Shown here: positions 54,932 through 60,306 of the stretch, piece by piece
How the letters are laid out: each line of letters starts with the position of its first letter
Numbering within the stretch: position 1 is the first letter of the stretch
DNA from: Devosia aquimaris
Lineage (GTDB): Bacteria > Pseudomonadota > Alphaproteobacteria > Rhizobiales > Devosiaceae
NCBI RefSeq assembly: GCF_020169335.1
Contig: NZ_JAIEZN010000001.1
Coordinates: 1,505,426-1,569,425, forward strand
Direction of reading: 5' to 3'
DNA: 64,000 nucleotides
The notes under the pieces: generated by a model
The model's database searches: none
Told to the model about the DNA's origin: nothing
The model's input: the letters and a program-made list of their open reading frames with translations, nothing else
Translations under genes and position numbers: made by a program

Positions 54932-55076
54932 TGTCTCTGCCTCCAGCTGGCGGAAAACTGCTGCGTCCACAGATCGGGCGGTGCCCCCAAGGCCCGCGCT
55001 TCGACCCGCACTGTTATTCCGAGGCCGACGATTTCAGATGTTAGTGCGCATGTCTGGTGCTATCTTTTGGCTTGAG

Positions 55077-55095
55077 TGCTGCAAAAAATGCAGCA
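55077..55095. promoter_or_regulatory. inverted repeat between lysR and the ABC operon, candidate LTTR operator
   Basis: TGCTGCA (55077-55083) and TGCAGCA (55089-55095) form a 7-base inverted repeat around five As in the 191-base divergent intergenic region, 28 bases before the lysR start. LysR-type regulators bind interrupted dyads (T-N11-A) near their own divergent promoter, so this is a reasonable operator. No strong -35/-10 pair was found. Confidence 0.45.
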
Positions 55096-55122
55096 GTCCA
55101 ATCCCAGTGCCCGGAGACCGCC

Positions 55123-56031
55123 ATGCGCTACCTGACATCGGCCCGCTATATCGTCGCCGTGGCCAAGGCCGGCTCCATCCGCAAGGCCGCCGAGGCGCTC
55201 TCGATCACCTCGACAGCGCTCAACCGGCGCATTCTCGACCTCGAGGAAGAGCTGGGCGCGCCGATCTTCGAGCGCCTGCCGCGCGGCGTGCGCCTCAGCA
55301 GCGCCGGGGAAATCCTGATCCACTCCCTCCGCAACCAGCTCAGCGACATGGACCGGGTGCGCTCGCAGATCGCCGACCTCTCCGGCGTTCGCCGCGGCCA
55401 TGTCTCGATTGCCTGCAGCCAGGCGCTGGTGCCCTATTTCCTGCCCAGCCAGATCGCGCACTATCGCCAGGCCCATCCCAATGTGAGCTTTGGCGTACAT
55501 GTGCGCGACCGCGAGGCGGCGGAACGGGCGCTGGCCGACCACACCGCCGACATCGCCATCGTCTTCGAGCCCGTGCGCATGGCCGAATTCCACACCATCA
55601 TCAGCGTGCGCCAGCCCGTGCATGCCGTGATGGCCCGCAACCACCCGCTGGCCGACAAGCAAACCCTCAGGCTGGGTGATTGCCTCAACTACCCCATTGC
55701 CCTGCCGACCCTACCCTATGGCGTGCGCAATCTGATGGAGCTGGCCGCCTTGCGCACCGCGCGCGCGCTGACGCCCATGATTGAATCGGACAGCTTCGAT
55801 TTCCTGCGCCACTACGCTGCCCAGGAACATCTGGTGTCGTTCCAGATCCCCATCGGCCTGTCGCTGGCCAAGACCGGCGGCATGGTGATCTCCACCCCGC
55901 TCGACACCCGCGACGTGCCCGCCGGCATTTTGTACATGGGCCAGCTCAAGGGGCGCACCCTGCCCGTCGCCGCCGCCCGCTTCGCCGCGCAGCTCTCCTC
56001 GGCTTTTGCCGATGAATACGAGCTGGCCTGA
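55123..56031 (+). CDS. LysR-family transcriptional regulator
   Basis: 302-residue regulator starting at the ATG at 55123 with GGAG 6 bases upstream. The winged helix-turn-helix occupies residues 1-60 (KAGSIRKAAEALSITSTALN, RRILDLEEELGAPIFERLPR), followed by a linker helix and the periplasmic-binding-like effector domain (HVSIACSQALVPYFLPSQIA onward). Divergent orientation next to the ABC/biuret operon makes it the likely regulator of that operon, with biuret, allophanate, triuret or a nitrogen signal as possible effectors. Effector not readable. Confidence 0.93.
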   Translation: MRYLTSARYIVAVAKAGSIRKAAEALSITSTALNRRILDLEEELGAPIFERLPRGVRLSSAGEILIHSLRNQLSDMDRVRSQIADLSGVRRGHVSIACSQALVPYFLPSQIAHYRQAHPNVSFGVHVRDREAAERALADHTADIAIVFEPVRMAEFHTIISVRQPVHAVMARNHPLADKQTLRLGDCLNYPIALPTLPYGVRNLMELAALRTARALTPMIESDSFDFLRHYAAQEHLVSFQIPIGLSLAKTGGMVISTPLDTRDVPAGILYMGQLKGRTLPVAAARFAAQLSSAFADEYELA

Positions 56032-56253
56032 CGTCAGCGTCACCGCCATTTGTGCTGGTCTGTCAGTGCATTGCAGCAGTTTGCGGATTCACCGTCTGCT
56101 GACTCGATTCCGGGAGTCGAGAATACGATGCTCCCCTGTCTGGTCCGCGCGGCAAGTTTATCCCCCTCCGGCCCGATAATGGATAAGCCATCGCCAGACA
56201 GCGCCGTCCCCCCTGTCCTAGGATTGCGGCAACACTGGTTCTGGAGTTCAAAG

Positions 56254-57177
56254 ATGCAGTTCGCAAAGTTTGCCGCCGTGGCGGTTGTTGGTTTCGCTGC
56301 GCTGGTTGGCGGCGCCCATGCCGAACGCCTGACGGATGCCCCTCTGGTCGACGCCGCCTGGCTGCAGGATCACCTCGGCAATGAAAGCCTGGTGGTTCTG
56401 GACGTCCGCGATGCCGTCGAAAACGTGCTGCCCTACACCACCGCCCATATCCCCGGCGCAATCTCGGCACCCTATGGCACCGCGGGCTGGCGCCAGGAAG
56501 TCCAGGGCGTGCCGGCCCAGTTCCCCGGCGCCGATGTGGCCGCCAAGCTGATCGGCGACCTGGGCATCAGCAATGACAAGCATGTCGTCATCGTCTCGCA
56601 GGGCACCAATTCCTCCGAGTTCGGCGCCGCCACCCGCGTCTACTGGACCTTCAAGGTGCTCGGCCACGACGCCGTGTCGATCCTCAATGGCGGCGCGCGC
56701 GCCTGGGATGCAGCCGGCGGCGAGGTGACCGAGGTCGCCACCACGCTTGAGCCCGCCCAGTTCACCGCCAATTTCCAGCAGCAGCTGCTGGCCACCACCG
56801 CCGACGTCGAAGCCGCCATCGCCAATGGCACCAAGCTCGTCGATGGTCGTCCGGTCGCGCAGTATCGTGGCGAAGGCAAGAGCCCGGTCGTGCGCGTCCC
56901 CGGCACCATCCCCGGCGCCGTCAACATCGACAACGGCCAGCTCTATAGCGCCGACAACGCCACTTTCGTCAGCGCCGACACCGTCGCCAACCTGGCGTCT
57001 GGCGTGGGCCTGGGCGCCGATGAGGCCAACATCGCCTTCTGCAACACCGGCCACTGGGCGTCCATCGTCTGGTTCGGCCTGTCCGAAGTGCAGGGCAACA
57101 AGAACACCCGCATGTACGACGGCTCGATGGCCGAATGGGCTGCCGACGAATCCCGCCCGGTCGTCAACGGCCTCTGA
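56254..57177 (+). CDS. exported two-domain rhodanese-like sulfurtransferase
   Basis: 307-residue protein from the ATG at 56254 (GGAG upstream) with a signal peptide ending at GGAHA-E (about residue 23), so it acts in the periplasm. Two rhodanese domains: residues 30-160 with LVVLDVRDAVENV, whose active-site place carries SQGTNSS without Cys and is presumably inactive, and 165-307 with catalytic Cys263 in FCNTGHWASIVW. The family transfers sulfane sulfur from thiosulfate or a persulfide. A YeeE/YedE transporter follows after a terminator hairpin, which suggests a sulfur-handling group. Confidence 0.9.
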   Translation: MQFAKFAAVAVVGFAALVGGAHAERLTDAPLVDAAWLQDHLGNESLVVLDVRDAVENVLPYTTAHIPGAISAPYGTAGWRQEVQGVPAQFPGADVAAKLIGDLGISNDKHVVIVSQGTNSSEFGAATRVYWTFKVLGHDAVSILNGGARAWDAAGGEVTEVATTLEPAQFTANFQQQLLATTADVEAAIANGTKLVDGRPVAQYRGEGKSPVVRVPGTIPGAVNIDNGQLYSADNATFVSADTVANLASGVGLGADEANIAFCNTGHWASIVWFGLSEVQGNKNTRMYDGSMAEWAADESRPVVNGL

Positions 57178-57201
57178 TATCTCACGATCAACCTGATTAC
57201 G

Positions 57202-57243
57202 GGCGGTGTCCGGGCTTAAGGCCTGGACACCGCCTGACTTTTT
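57202..57243 (+). terminator. intrinsic terminator between rhodanese and yeeE-type genes
   Basis: Perfect 10-base arms GGCGGTGTCC (57202-57211) and GGACACCGCC (57225-57234), followed by TGACTTTTT. It is 24 bases after the rhodanese stop and 39 bases before the transporter start, so it either ends the first gene or attenuates the second. Confidence 0.75.
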
Positions 57244-57281
57244 CGGCCACCAAACATCTGATGCATTGAGGAGATTCGTTG

Positions 57282-58505
57282 ATGAGCCAGCTGTCCGCGA
57301 CAGCGCCGGGGTCCGCGCCGACATTGCCCGCCCCATCGGTGGACAAGAGCGTCGCCCTGGTGGTGAGCCTGCTGATCGTGATCGGCGTCCAGCTGATCGG
57401 CCAATTGGTGTCGCCCCGCCAGTCGCTGCTGTTCCTCATCGGCGGCCTGCTCGGCGCGACGCTCTATCACGCCTCCTTCGGCTTCACCGGCGGCTGGCGC
57501 CGCATGGTGGTTGAAAAGCGCGGCCGCGCCATGCGCGCCCAGATGCTGATGATCGCTGTCGCCGCCATTGCCTTCATCCCCCTGCTCGCCATGGGCAGCG
57601 TTGGCGGCCAGGCCCTGGTGGGCGCAACAGCGCCAGTCGGCGTCTCCGTGCTGTTCGGCGCCGCTCTCTTTGGCCTGGGCATGCAATTGGGCGGCGGTTG
57701 CGGCTCGGGCACGCTGTTCACCGTTGGCGGCGGCAGCGCCCGCATGCTGGTGACGCTGGTCTTCTTCATCGTCGGCGCGGTATTGGGCACCGCCCACCTG
57801 CCCTATTGGCTGACGCTGCCCGCCTTGCCGCCAACGAGCCTGGGCACCGTGCTCGGTGTGCCGGGCGGCCTGGCCGTCACGCTGCTGGGCCTTGCCGCCG
57901 TCGCCGCGATCACGGCTGTGATCGAGCGGCGCAGCCATGGGTCGCTGGAGCGCGAACCGGCCACGAGCCGCAAGGGCATCGAGCGCCTGCTGCATGGTCC
58001 CTGGCCGCTGGTCGGCGCAGGCCTCGCCCTTGCCCTCCTCAATATCGCCACGCTCCTCGTGGCCGGCCACCCCTGGTCGATCACCTATGGCTTTGGCCTG
58101 TGGGGCGCCAAGATCGCCCAGGCTGTCGGCATCGATGTCGCCAGCTGGGAATTCTGGACCTGGCCGGCCCAGGCCAAGGCGCTCAATTCCAGCGTCTTGC
58201 AGGATGTCACCTCGGTGATGGACTTCGGCATCATTCTGGGCGCCGCGCTGGCGGCGGCCCTGGCCGGCAAGTTTGCGCCCAAGGCCAAGCTGCCACTGGG
58301 CTCGTTGCTGGCGGCGATCATCGGCGGACTGATCATGGGCTATGGTGCCCGGCTGTCGTTTGGCTGCAATATCGGCGCGCTGTTCTCCGGCATTGCCTCG
58401 GGCAGCCTGCACGGCTGGCTCTGGTTCGCCGCCGCCTTCGGTGGCAGCCTGGTCGGGGTCTTTGCCCGGCCGCTCTTTGGTCTGGATGGGTTCAAGCGCT
58501 CATGA
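57282..58505 (+). CDS. YeeE/YedE family sulfur-compound transporter
   Basis: 407-residue inner-membrane protein of the YeeE/YedE (TsuA) family; characterised members import thiosulfate using conserved cysteines. Start at the ATG at 57282 with GAGGAG upstream (a TTG one codon earlier is possible). Two internally repeated halves are visible with Cys140 in LGGGCGSGTLFTVGGGSARM and Cys362 in LSFGCNIGALFSGI, both matching the transport-line cysteines; several GxxxG-rich hydrophobic segments lie between. The stop overlaps the start of the Cys-rich protein as ATGA, so the two are translated together. Confidence 0.92.
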   Translation: MSQLSATAPGSAPTLPAPSVDKSVALVVSLLIVIGVQLIGQLVSPRQSLLFLIGGLLGATLYHASFGFTGGWRRMVVEKRGRAMRAQMLMIAVAAIAFIPLLAMGSVGGQALVGATAPVGVSVLFGAALFGLGMQLGGGCGSGTLFTVGGGSARMLVTLVFFIVGAVLGTAHLPYWLTLPALPPTSLGTVLGVPGGLAVTLLGLAAVAAITAVIERRSHGSLEREPATSRKGIERLLHGPWPLVGAGLALALLNIATLLVAGHPWSITYGFGLWGAKIAQAVGIDVASWEFWTWPAQAKALNSSVLQDVTSVMDFGIILGAALAAALAGKFAPKAKLPLGSLLAAIIGGLIMGYGARLSFGCNIGALFSGIASGSLHGWLWFAAAFGGSLVGVFARPLFGLDGFKRS

Positions 58506-58963
58506 GCAATCGCAATACACTGTTGTTCGGCGCCGCCCTCGTCGCCGCCACCGGCGCCATTGCCGCCGATCATGTGAGCCATCGCGCCGCGCCGGCGGCC
58601 CCCGCAGCCATGGCGGCCAGCGCCGCCCCCTGTGCCGCCAATCCCTGTGGGGCCGGCAATCCCTGCGCGGCTGCTGCGCCATGCGCCGCCGCGTCCCCGG
58701 CAGCATCGCCCTGCGCGGCAGCGCCCTGCGCCGCGGCCAACCCATGTTCGGCAGCAGCTCCCTGCGCCGCTGCCGCGCCTTGCTCAGCCGCAGCACCCTG
58801 TTCCGCCGCTGCTCCGGCAGCCGTTGCTGCACCATGCGCAGCGGCAGCGCCCTGCTCGGCAGCCGCACCGTGTTCAGCTGCGGCCCCCTGTGCCGCGGCT
58901 GCACCGGCGCCTGTGGCTGCGCCCTGCGCTGCTGCGGCGCCCTGCGCGGCCATGGGGCAATAG
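58502..58963 (+). CDS. exported Ala-rich protein with 16 Pro-Cys repeats
   Basis: 153-residue low-complexity protein whose ATG overlaps the yeeE-type stop (58502-58505). A signal or anchor helix (residues 1-22, LLFGAALVAATGAIA) is followed by a His-containing spacer and then 16 cysteines, every one preceded by Pro, mostly in a six-residue period such as SAAAPC, AAAAPC and NPC. There are no aromatic residues after the spacer. The array could carry metal ions or sulfane sulfur outside the cytoplasm. Similar NPC-repeat exported proteins exist in proteobacteria without known function; I know of no proven role. The coding strand is strongly biased and the reverse frame is a shadow. Confidence 0.85.
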   Translation: MSNRNTLLFGAALVAATGAIAADHVSHRAAPAAPAAMAASAAPCAANPCGAGNPCAAAAPCAAASPAASPCAAAPCAAANPCSAAAPCAAAAPCSAAAPCSAAAPAAVAAPCAAAAPCSAAAPCSAAAPCAAAAPAPVAAPCAAAAPCAAMGQ

Positions 58964-58971
58964 GCCCAGCC

Positions 58972-59574
58972 ATGAGCGACCTGCAGCGCGCCGCCCAGGA
59001 AGCCCTGTTCTGCCAGACCATTCTGGCCAAGAGCGGCGACAATGTGCTGCTCGAAACCCTGCGCGGCGCCGCACCGGTCACCTGGGCGCATTATCCGCCC
59101 GGCGATGTCTTCGATCCCGACAGCGGCGCGCAATGGTATTACCACTGCCACGATGCCAGCCCCCATGCCGCCGAGCACGGGCATTTCCACTGCTTCATCC
59201 GGCCACAGGGCAAGACCGGTCCGATCCACCATCTGGTCGGCGTCGGTGTCGATGCCTATGGCCGGCTGGTGCGGCTGTTCACCGTCAATCACTGGGTGGT
59301 CGGTGACGACTGGGCCGATGCTGCCACCACCACGCCGCTGCTCGAGCGCTTTGACGTGCACATGGCGCGGCCATCCTATCTGGTCAATCGCTGGCTCACC
59401 GCTGTCCTGAGCCTCTACCAGGCCGAGATTGCCCAGCTCATCGCACAGCGCGACGCCTGCCTGGACCGGCACCAGCCGCCTGAGGGCATCGCCACCCGCG
59501 AGGATCGCAGCCTCGAAGTCACCTCCGAGCTGATGGTGGACCTGGCAGCCCGCGCCAAAGCGCTGGGCGTCTAG
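58972..59574 (+). CDS. conserved protein of unknown function with His/Cys cluster
   Basis: 200-residue soluble protein, no signal peptide, starting at the ATG at 58972, 8 bases after the Cys-repeat gene. Residues 56-74 hold a dense set of possible ligands: His58, Cys59, His60, His65, His69, His71, His73 and Cys74 (YYHCHDASPHAAEHGHFHCF), followed by HH at 86-87 and His107. The C-terminal half is helical (WLTAVLSLYQAEIAQLIAQR). I do not recognise a named family with certainty. A cytoplasmic metal- or sulfur-binding partner of the transporter and the Cys-repeat protein is plausible from context only. Confidence 0.8.
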   Translation: MSDLQRAAQEALFCQTILAKSGDNVLLETLRGAAPVTWAHYPPGDVFDPDSGAQWYYHCHDASPHAAEHGHFHCFIRPQGKTGPIHHLVGVGVDAYGRLVRLFTVNHWVVGDDWADAATTTPLLERFDVHMARPSYLVNRWLTAVLSLYQAEIAQLIAQRDACLDRHQPPEGIATREDRSLEVTSELMVDLAARAKALGV

Positions 59575-59892
59575 ATCGTTTCAAGTTCAGACCGGCGCGG
59601 TTCTGTCGCCCCTCCCCCTTGAGGGGCCTCGAGGCGAGCGAAGGTCAAATTGCGCCAGCGGCGCGATTTGAGCCGACAAGGCCATGAGACCTATGGTCGA
59701 ATGGCTGGCCCGGGTGGGGTCGTTCGCTGGCCCTCAGAACCACCCGCAACCTGACAAATAAGTAAAGCTCGGGCGAGGTGCAGGCAAACTCACCCGCCTA
59801 AACCTGTTTGTGTTGATGCAGATGCATCGACCGCGACCGGCCAACGGTTTCTCCGCCCCGATCCGTTTCAAGCCTCGCAATAGGAGATCAAA
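59575..59892. other. 318-base gene-free region with two hairpins
   Basis: No ORF looks coding here. Hairpin 1: GCCCCT (59608-59613) with AGGGGC (59622-59627). Hairpin 2: 11-base arms at 59646-59656 and 59660-59670 with one G-T pair and an AGC loop. The block 59605-59730 has the look of a dispersed intergenic palindromic element, but only one copy is in the window. The right end contains the ribosome site TAGGAGATC for the next gene; no clear promoter was recognised. Confidence 0.4.
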
Positions 59893-60306
59893 ATGAAGAG
59901 CTTTGCCAAAATCGCCTCCCCCGCCATTGTTGCCTTTGCCGTGGTCGTTTCGGCGGGCGCGGCTTTCGCCGCCCCCACGTTCACCACGGCCACCCCCGGC
60001 AGCGGCATGGCGATCGCGGATTTCGGCAGCCAGCTGGGCGTCTTCAACCCGACCGAAGTGACCGACCTGGCAGCCGCCAAGTCCGTCACGGTCGTCAAGT
60101 ATGACACGGCCTGGACCAAGGACGACGACACCGCCAAGGCGGTCGACCTGCTGACGGCCGATGCGCAGTCGATCGGCCAGCTGCGTGAGGCGCTCAAGGC
60201 CAATCCCGAAGCGTCCAAGTTGCTCGAAGCCAACCACATCGCCATCAATGACGTTGTCGACCTGGTGTCGGACGGCGCGGGCAATGTGTCGATCTACGTC
60301 TCGTAA
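59893..60306 (+). CDS. exported hypothetical protein
   Basis: 137 residues with a clear signal peptide (MKSFAKIASPAIVAFAVVVS, cleaved after AGAAFAA) and a strong ribosome site. The mature part (about 110 residues) has no Cys and reads as a small alpha/beta domain: IADFGSQLGVFNPTEVTDLA, SVTVVKYDTAW, then helical AQSIGQLREALKANPEASKL and IAINDVVDLVSDGAGNVSIY. I do not recognise the family; a small secreted or periplasmic protein of unknown job. It has a strong terminator and is probably monocistronic. Confidence 0.8.
   Translation: MKSFAKIASPAIVAFAVVVSAGAAFAAPTFTTATPGSGMAIADFGSQLGVFNPTEVTDLAAAKSVTVVKYDTAWTKDDDTAKAVDLLTADAQSIGQLREALKANPEASKLLEANHIAINDVVDLVSDGAGNVSIYVS

Follow-up and report, generated by a model that had tools for sequence, protein, structure and literature searches.

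The window analysed here, a stretch of 64,000 nt from Devosia aquimaris, contains an operon with the gene order exported double-rhodanese, YeeE/YedE transporter, Pro-Cys protein and DUF6969, all on the forward strand. The first gene (56254..57177), for which start codon and export segment were assigned by eye, specifies a putative exported double-rhodanese sulfurtransferase. Its product matches PF00581 in two stretches (E 1.2e-24), its best matches among solved structures are sulfurtransferases, and its single cysteine, located in the loop CNTGHWAS, is kept in all 28 orthologues that show at least 45% identity and cover this residue. Two rhodanese stretches and the catalytic cysteine identify the protein as a double-domain rhodanese; its score of 117 bits is under the NCBIfam cut-off of 250 bits for 3-mercaptopyruvate sulfurtransferase. 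The second gene (57282..58505) encodes a YeeE/YedE-family sulfur transporter of 407 aa with a Sulf_transp domain (PF04143, E 3.8e-76) and two cysteines at positions 140 and 362. In an alignment with TsuA of Spirochaeta thermophila (6leo), from which the residue numbers were counted, Cys140 falls on Cys91 and Cys362 on the cysteine of GGCNIG, matched by this motif to TsuA Cys293, and a glycine is found at the place of Cys22, the cysteine in GRICF. Cys91 and Cys293 are indispensable in TsuA, as stated in the text of the SoxT paper dealing with TsuA (PMC11582611). The domain and the two cysteines place the protein in the YeeE/YedE family, and its scores fall under the NCBIfam TsuA cut-offs. Among orthologues, Cys140 is kept in 39 out of 39 and Cys362 in 41 out of 41 sequences. 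YeeE is present in 41 and rhodanese (at least 45% identity) in 28 of 81 loci compared; thus, rhodanese is common beside YeeE, but not universal.

A gene for YeeD/TusA is not contained in the operon, and the only TusA match in the genome is located on contig C2. SoxY gave no match in the genome, and a link to Sox was therefore rejected. A LysR gene (55057-56031) was also excluded from the operon, since it was matched in only one out of 18 larger stretches from relatives, with 31% and in a non-adjacent position. Rfam searches at gathering score detected no RNA element from 55900 to 59900. After a gap beyond the operon, an ORF for 137 aa with an export-like N-terminus is present (59893-60306, +), which showed no Pfam match at E 0.1.

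The third gene (58502..58963, +), extending from ATG to TAG, encodes the Pro-Cys arm protein of 153 aa, which consists largely of alanine, proline, and cysteine. As reported in the preliminary description, its 16 cysteines correspond to 16 PC dipeptides, every cysteine being preceded by proline, and the gene is coupled to yeeE by an ATGA stop-start overlap (58502..58505); the exported rhodanese placed nearby in that description is found two genes upstream. The cysteines are at positions 44, 49, 55, 61, 71, 76, 82, 88, 94, 100, 112, 118, 124, 130, 142, and 148. An even spacing, mostly with a period of six residues, had been claimed; ten out of 15 gaps are six residues long, the others being 5 (twice), 12 (twice), and 10; spacing is therefore mostly six but not strictly even. 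The smallest gap being five, CC and CxC are absent. The Pro-Cys ladder comprises residues 43-148 (58628..58945) and is preceded by an N-terminal export segment, TLLFGAALVAATGAIA, which was called by eye; with the same kind of judgement, the export/anchor segment MSNRNTLLFGAALVAATGAIA, followed by ADH, was assigned to 58502..58570. When residues 25-153 were shuffled, none of 200,000 shuffles yielded 16 PC dipeptides and the best had 10. Six different codon pairs specify the 16 Pro-Cys pairs, all four alanine and all four proline codons are used in the gene, and Tandem Repeats Finder detected units with just 67-80% matches in its DNA. From the shuffles, the varied codons and the poor DNA repeat, it appears that the Pro-Cys pattern was probably selected and kept at the protein level and does not reflect a recent DNA duplication. 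No Pfam or NCBIfam family was matched by the arm at E 0.1, searches for further copies in its own genome gave weak matches only (E 0.04 or worse), and tblastn with the low-complexity filter on gave no match on plasmids. Three sequence matches in the PDB (best E 0.03) were taken as low-complexity chance.

The fourth gene (58972..59574, +) starts 8 bases downstream of the Pro-Cys gene and specifies a protein of 200 aa, in which no export signal was seen by eye. With 240.7 bits against PF22308 (E 1.4e-71; curated cut-off 27), it belongs to DUF6969. Residues His58, His60, His71, His73, His87, Asn106, Trp108, Arg160, and others are invariant in 56 DUF6969 sequences, and no cysteine is invariant among them. 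The AlphaFold2 model (pLDDT 96.9, pTM 0.92) displays a series of five consecutive strands flanked by helices, with a further strand close to the end; the invariant histidines are located in strands 2, 3, and 4 or adjacent to them. The five histidines could hold a metal. Foldseek searches of the PDB gave no hit at E 0.001 or better (best E 0.24), with TM values of at most 0.25 among the matches listed, and no relative was detected in the PDB by sequence (best E 0.67). Among 61 genomes, the own one and 60 relatives, 35 contain DUF6969. In the open-licence literature searched, no relevant report was found for DUF6969, PF22308, or NPCNPC, and the link of DUF6969 to Pro-Cys proteins is first drawn in the present analysis.

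Public genomes were scanned with a DUF6969 alignment, by which at least 558 relatives were confirmed and the best 80 of them kept. Being chosen as best matches, these 80 loci out of at least 558 lean to near relatives; they span other Rhizobiales (Aminobacter, Chelativorans, Falsochrobactrum, and others) and Rhodospirillales, and one betaproteobacterium, Pseudothauera, is among them. Triads were defined by genes for YeeE and DUF6969 within 900 bases, YeeE being upstream, and the longest ORF in between was designated X. In total, 41 triads were obtained, 40 from the best 80 of at least 558 loci and one additional locus, L051; in four of the proteins, the start was trimmed to the conserved start. 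All 41 triads examined contain as X a similar protein with a conserved N-terminal export segment and Pro-Cys, and the four-base overlap with yeeE is found in 35. The earlier assumption of a functional, non-random protein with an N-terminus that looks export-like by eye is thereby strengthened. Its claim that no other feature remains was mistaken, because the N-terminus is conserved in relatives and because the adjacent DUF6969 gene, the key partner according to its link to ladders with and without YeeE, had been overlooked.

The X proteins start with a sequence like M-x-RNTLLFGAAL, followed by a hydrophobic stretch. The export segment ends with xD[HYQ] in all 41, with xDH in 31, and in 24 of these 31 xDH directly follows A-x-A. 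An arm cut after AxA would start with A-D-H, an N-terminus that could presumably bind Cu or Ni. While 216 out of 218 cysteines follow proline, which accounts for 19% of the residues, the two exceptions are both found in NKCGLA (L261, L263). Tails vary among the triads: some are APC and NPC ladders, others combine APCAAGAP and PPPPPA blocks, and a further form has two NPC sites and a linker. The export segment is constant, as is an arm rich in proline and alanine with one or more Pro-Cys. The preliminary description had regarded repeat collapse or loss of cysteines in relatives as evidence against its proposal. The number of cysteines does vary, from 1 to 17, and 11 proteins contain only one or two, but each of the 41 retains at least one Pro-Cys. 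The family rule is therefore Pro-Cys and not ladder length. A rigid ladder for many metal ions, as had been proposed, finds no support; one or two cysteines are present in the same slot in 11 triads, and a thiol carrier would fit these proteins better than a sponge with many sites. An export-like segment at the N-terminus and cysteines after proline define the arm family, and the arm is a conserved part of a sulfur-transport operon.

Two observations were made besides. An arm-like protein (TGAVATDHLAH, then SPCAPAASPCAPA) is encoded in another DUF6969 stretch (L173:3075-3479, -), which also matches YeeE and rhodanese, but its gene lies on the strand opposite to DUF6969, at a distance of about 2.5 kb. 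In the window, an antisense frame of 300 codons (58570-59472, -) runs without a stop through the genes for arm and DUF6969, and it is nearly open in relatives, with 0-3 stops in the eight loci looked at out of 41. Repeat and codon bias can cause such openness.

In the class Alphaproteobacteria, PF22308 was found in 90 out of 385 genomes, the own genome included. Stretches around the listed DUF6969 hits, 98 without the one in the window and mostly of about 12.6 kb or shorter at contig ends, were searched for ladders, defined as an ORF with at least five PC in 60 residues. For comparison, 40 control stretches, each 20 kb long and set manually at round coordinates, were taken from 20 of these genomes. 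Ladders are present in 42 of the 98 stretches and in none of the controls, where four PC was the highest number; 56 of the 98 lack a ladder at this threshold. A second test, which required three or more cysteines, no less than 60% of them after proline, together with an export-like segment, detected 39 out of 98 stretches and again no control. Of its five extra hits, three look like chance frames, and eight of the ladder stretches fail it. Two sequence patterns were also searched for in the 385 genomes. NPCNPC occurs in 37 of the 90 DUF6969-positive genomes versus 12 of the 295 negative ones, NPCAAxNPCA in 21 versus one, and either pattern in 44 versus 12, with related genomes counted as if they were independent. 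At least two NPCNPC are found in 36 genomes, of which 33 contain DUF6969 and three do not (G184, G218, G356). Altogether, 52 of the 90 DUF6969 genomes have a ladder in the stretch or anywhere, and 38 show none by either test. As a partial check on kinship, a FastTree phylogeny of DUF6969 was used, which contains 94 rows and several long branches. The ladder label changes 22 times on this tree, at least eight times on starred branches, compared to a mean of 31.7 for shuffled labels. Consequently, the link between DUF6969 and ladders is not one inherited event; it recurs and is also partly inherited. YeeE is missing from 37 of the 42 ladder stretches. The association of Pro-Cys ladders with DUF6969, both in location and in occurrence among genomes, extends far outside the YeeE operon.

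The settings of these ladders were compared. Among the 42 ladder stretches, cytochrome P460 is part of the ladder ORF in 21, FGE/SUMF1-like genes are present in 20, and both in 13, while YeeE was detected in five, rhodanese in one, and none of the four in 11. The 56 ladder-free DUF6969 stretches showed P460 in six, FGE-like genes in nine, and YeeE in two cases, and none of the 40 controls contained P460, FGE-like genes, YeeE, or rhodanese. Pfam searches with 103 neighbouring ORFs identified Cytochrome_P460 in 11 and FGE-sulfatase in 10. Given the low numbers for YeeE and rhodanese, importing sulfur is not what ladders do in general. An FGE-like partner is missing in the own genome, and FGE is therefore regarded as a feature of other ladder loci. 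Individual ladder proteins differ in their arrangement. A Pro-Cys ladder precedes a P460-like domain in L112:7775-8929 (+), where it consists of 34 PC, in L048:9637-11187 (+), and in L052:4744-5838 (-), and a domain that resembles cytochrome c by eye in L050:7106-7927 (+). FGE/SUMF1-like proteins near DUF6969 and Pro-Cys ladder genes (L112:6731-7663, -; L100:2760-3668, +; L048:8514-9467, +) share the segment GGSWDD[KR]GCGVCRPA[AG]RH and have hydrophobic N-termini that were read by eye as export-like.

For the window, we favour, with a probability of roughly 0.4, that the Pro-Cys protein is an exported, flexible thiol arm handing sulfane sulfur to YeeE, the thiols of the arm being handled by DUF6969. 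Sulfane sulfur, derived from thiosulfate or a comparable donor, would be passed by the exported rhodanese to arm cysteines; the arm would present it at the external opening of YeeE, which would relay the sulfur inward through its two conserved cysteines. One or two cysteines would suffice for the hand-over, and long ladders such as the one in the window would add capacity. Before export, DUF6969 in the cytoplasm would most likely act on the thiols of the newly made arm by modification, loading, or protection. A thiol carrier is favoured because sulfur chemistry is common to both upstream genes and because relatives with one or two cysteines keep the gene. The Pro-Cys rule in all triads, the frequent overlap with yeeE, and the conserved cysteines of rhodanese and YeeE, the latter aligned with those of TsuA, also argue for a sulfur arm. 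The part assigned to DUF6969 is suggested by its repeated link to ladders in stretches, genomes and tree, and an action prior to export by the comparison with RiPP precursors exported through Sec, for example bufferins, as far as their design is outlined in PMC12452194. Against a sulfur arm count the absence of SoxY from the own genome, the missing counterparts of TsuA Cys22 and YeeD/TusA, the few ladder stretches with YeeE or rhodanese, the 56 stretches and 38 genomes with DUF6969 but no ladder, the 12 DUF6969-negative genomes with NPCNPC, and the cysteine ladders beside DUF6969 that are not Pro-Cys.

Several known systems resemble parts of this operon. SoxY is an exported carrier with its cysteine on a flexible swinging sulfur arm; the likeness to the window arm concerns the working idea only, as the own genome has no SoxY match. 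A further system is thiosulfate import by TsuA-TsuB (YeeE-YeeD) of Escherichia coli and S. thermophila. YeeE of the window shares two of the three TsuA cysteines, but it does not belong to this system: without Cys22 and without YeeD/TusA in the operon, TsuAB-type uptake is not simply copied, and the operon additionally contains DUF6969 and two exported proteins, rhodanese and the Pro-Cys arm. SoxT of Hyphomicrobium denitrificans is likewise a YeeE-family sulfur importer from an alphaproteobacterium (PMC11582611), but the window genome lacks SoxY, and neither arm nor DUF6969 appears in the parts of that paper drawn on here. We regard the window system as YeeE-type sulfur transport with new parts, and the unit of DUF6969 and Pro-Cys protein has a fair chance of being new in kind. 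The arm travelling with the unstudied DUF6969 points to an undescribed thiol-handling system. More tentatively, DUF6969 might found an enzyme family with a new fold and probable dependence on metal, by which cysteines of Pro-Cys proteins destined for export are modified or loaded. Such a thiol-modification system would be widespread in Alphaproteobacteria, independent of MNIO, and employed in more than one context, with YeeE for sulfur transport in the window and with cytochrome P460 plus an FGE-like protein elsewhere. If these readings are correct, an exported thiol carrier is added to YeeE-type sulfur import, whose outer side is little known according to the introduction of the SoxT paper (PMC11582611). 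DUF6969 would gain its first partner and a testable role, and Cys-ladder proteins, many of them joined to cytochrome P460, may carry novel cysteine chemistry.

Nearly as likely as the sulfur arm, and like it possible rather than probable, is a RiPP-like metallophore, for which DUF6969 would modify Pro-Cys cysteines in the cytoplasm and the Sec-exported product would chelate copper or another metal, the YeeE operon being just one setting. The arm gene is short, Cys-rich, and adjoins DUF6969 as a putative enzyme without a fold match, an arrangement that would fit a RiPP precursor and its partner. Bufferins and captophorins (BufA, EGKCG repeats), which are made by unrelated MNIO enzymes, have a similar design: in the parts of the reports drawn on here, bufferins combine a Sec signal, a Cys-rich precursor with 1-18 cysteines, and a dedicated enzyme (PMC12452194), and uncommon fusions of Buf1, cytochrome c, and FGE-like domains are described (PMC12452194, PMC12668002), which resembles the P460 and FGE-like genes at ladder loci. 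The many invariant histidines of DUF6969 and xDH past the export segment, which after cleavage would give a possible Cu/Ni site at the free N-terminus, would also suit a metallophore. In the window, however, the partner is DUF6969 instead of MNIO and cysteines follow proline; identity with an MNIO-made bufferin was rejected, because PF05114 was not matched in the own genome, which is 92.7% complete, and another enzyme would be required. The known chemistry of MNIO enzymes is not transferable, since the fontiphorin MNIO is intolerant of proline in the repeat, as stated in the passages of PMC12668002 concerned with it. Relatives with one or two cysteines offer little for metal storage, and the presence of rhodanese and YeeE speaks for sulfur.

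The shortage of cysteines in these relatives also weighs against an unmodified thiol or metal sponge outside the cytoplasm, similar to metallothionein, as initially proposed. Sixteen thiols in 153 aa, and up to 17 in relatives, would suit it, but a constant cysteine number and CxC or CC clusters, typical of metallothionein-like proteins, are lacking, and the presence of DUF6969 is left unexplained. We consider such a sponge improbable. Still less probable is that DUF6969 replaces YeeD as cytoplasmic acceptor of YeeE, with the Pro-Cys protein as a YeeE accessory and the ladder link elsewhere secondary. The operon without TusA/YeeD and the loss of Cys22, which is near YeeD in the TsuA-YeeD structure according to the structural part of PMC11073785, are consistent with an acceptor, but most ladder stretches have no YeeE and DUF6969 has no invariant cysteine. 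A chance low-complexity ORF or repeat artefact might be suspected from an Ala/Pro-rich protein in GC-rich DNA and from the long antisense frame; it is already refuted by the like protein, gene order, and overlap conserved in relatives, and the shuffles and varied codons leave it virtually no probability.

In some DUF6969 stretches, ladders of cysteines not preceded by proline were noticed: L096:7771-9072 (CGACGAC), L109:3648-4844 (KCGACGAK), L163:6730-7125 (HAGDCGGS), and L166:6713-7051 (EGCCAAEGC). Their position beside DUF6969 suggests that proline may not be a requirement of DUF6969.
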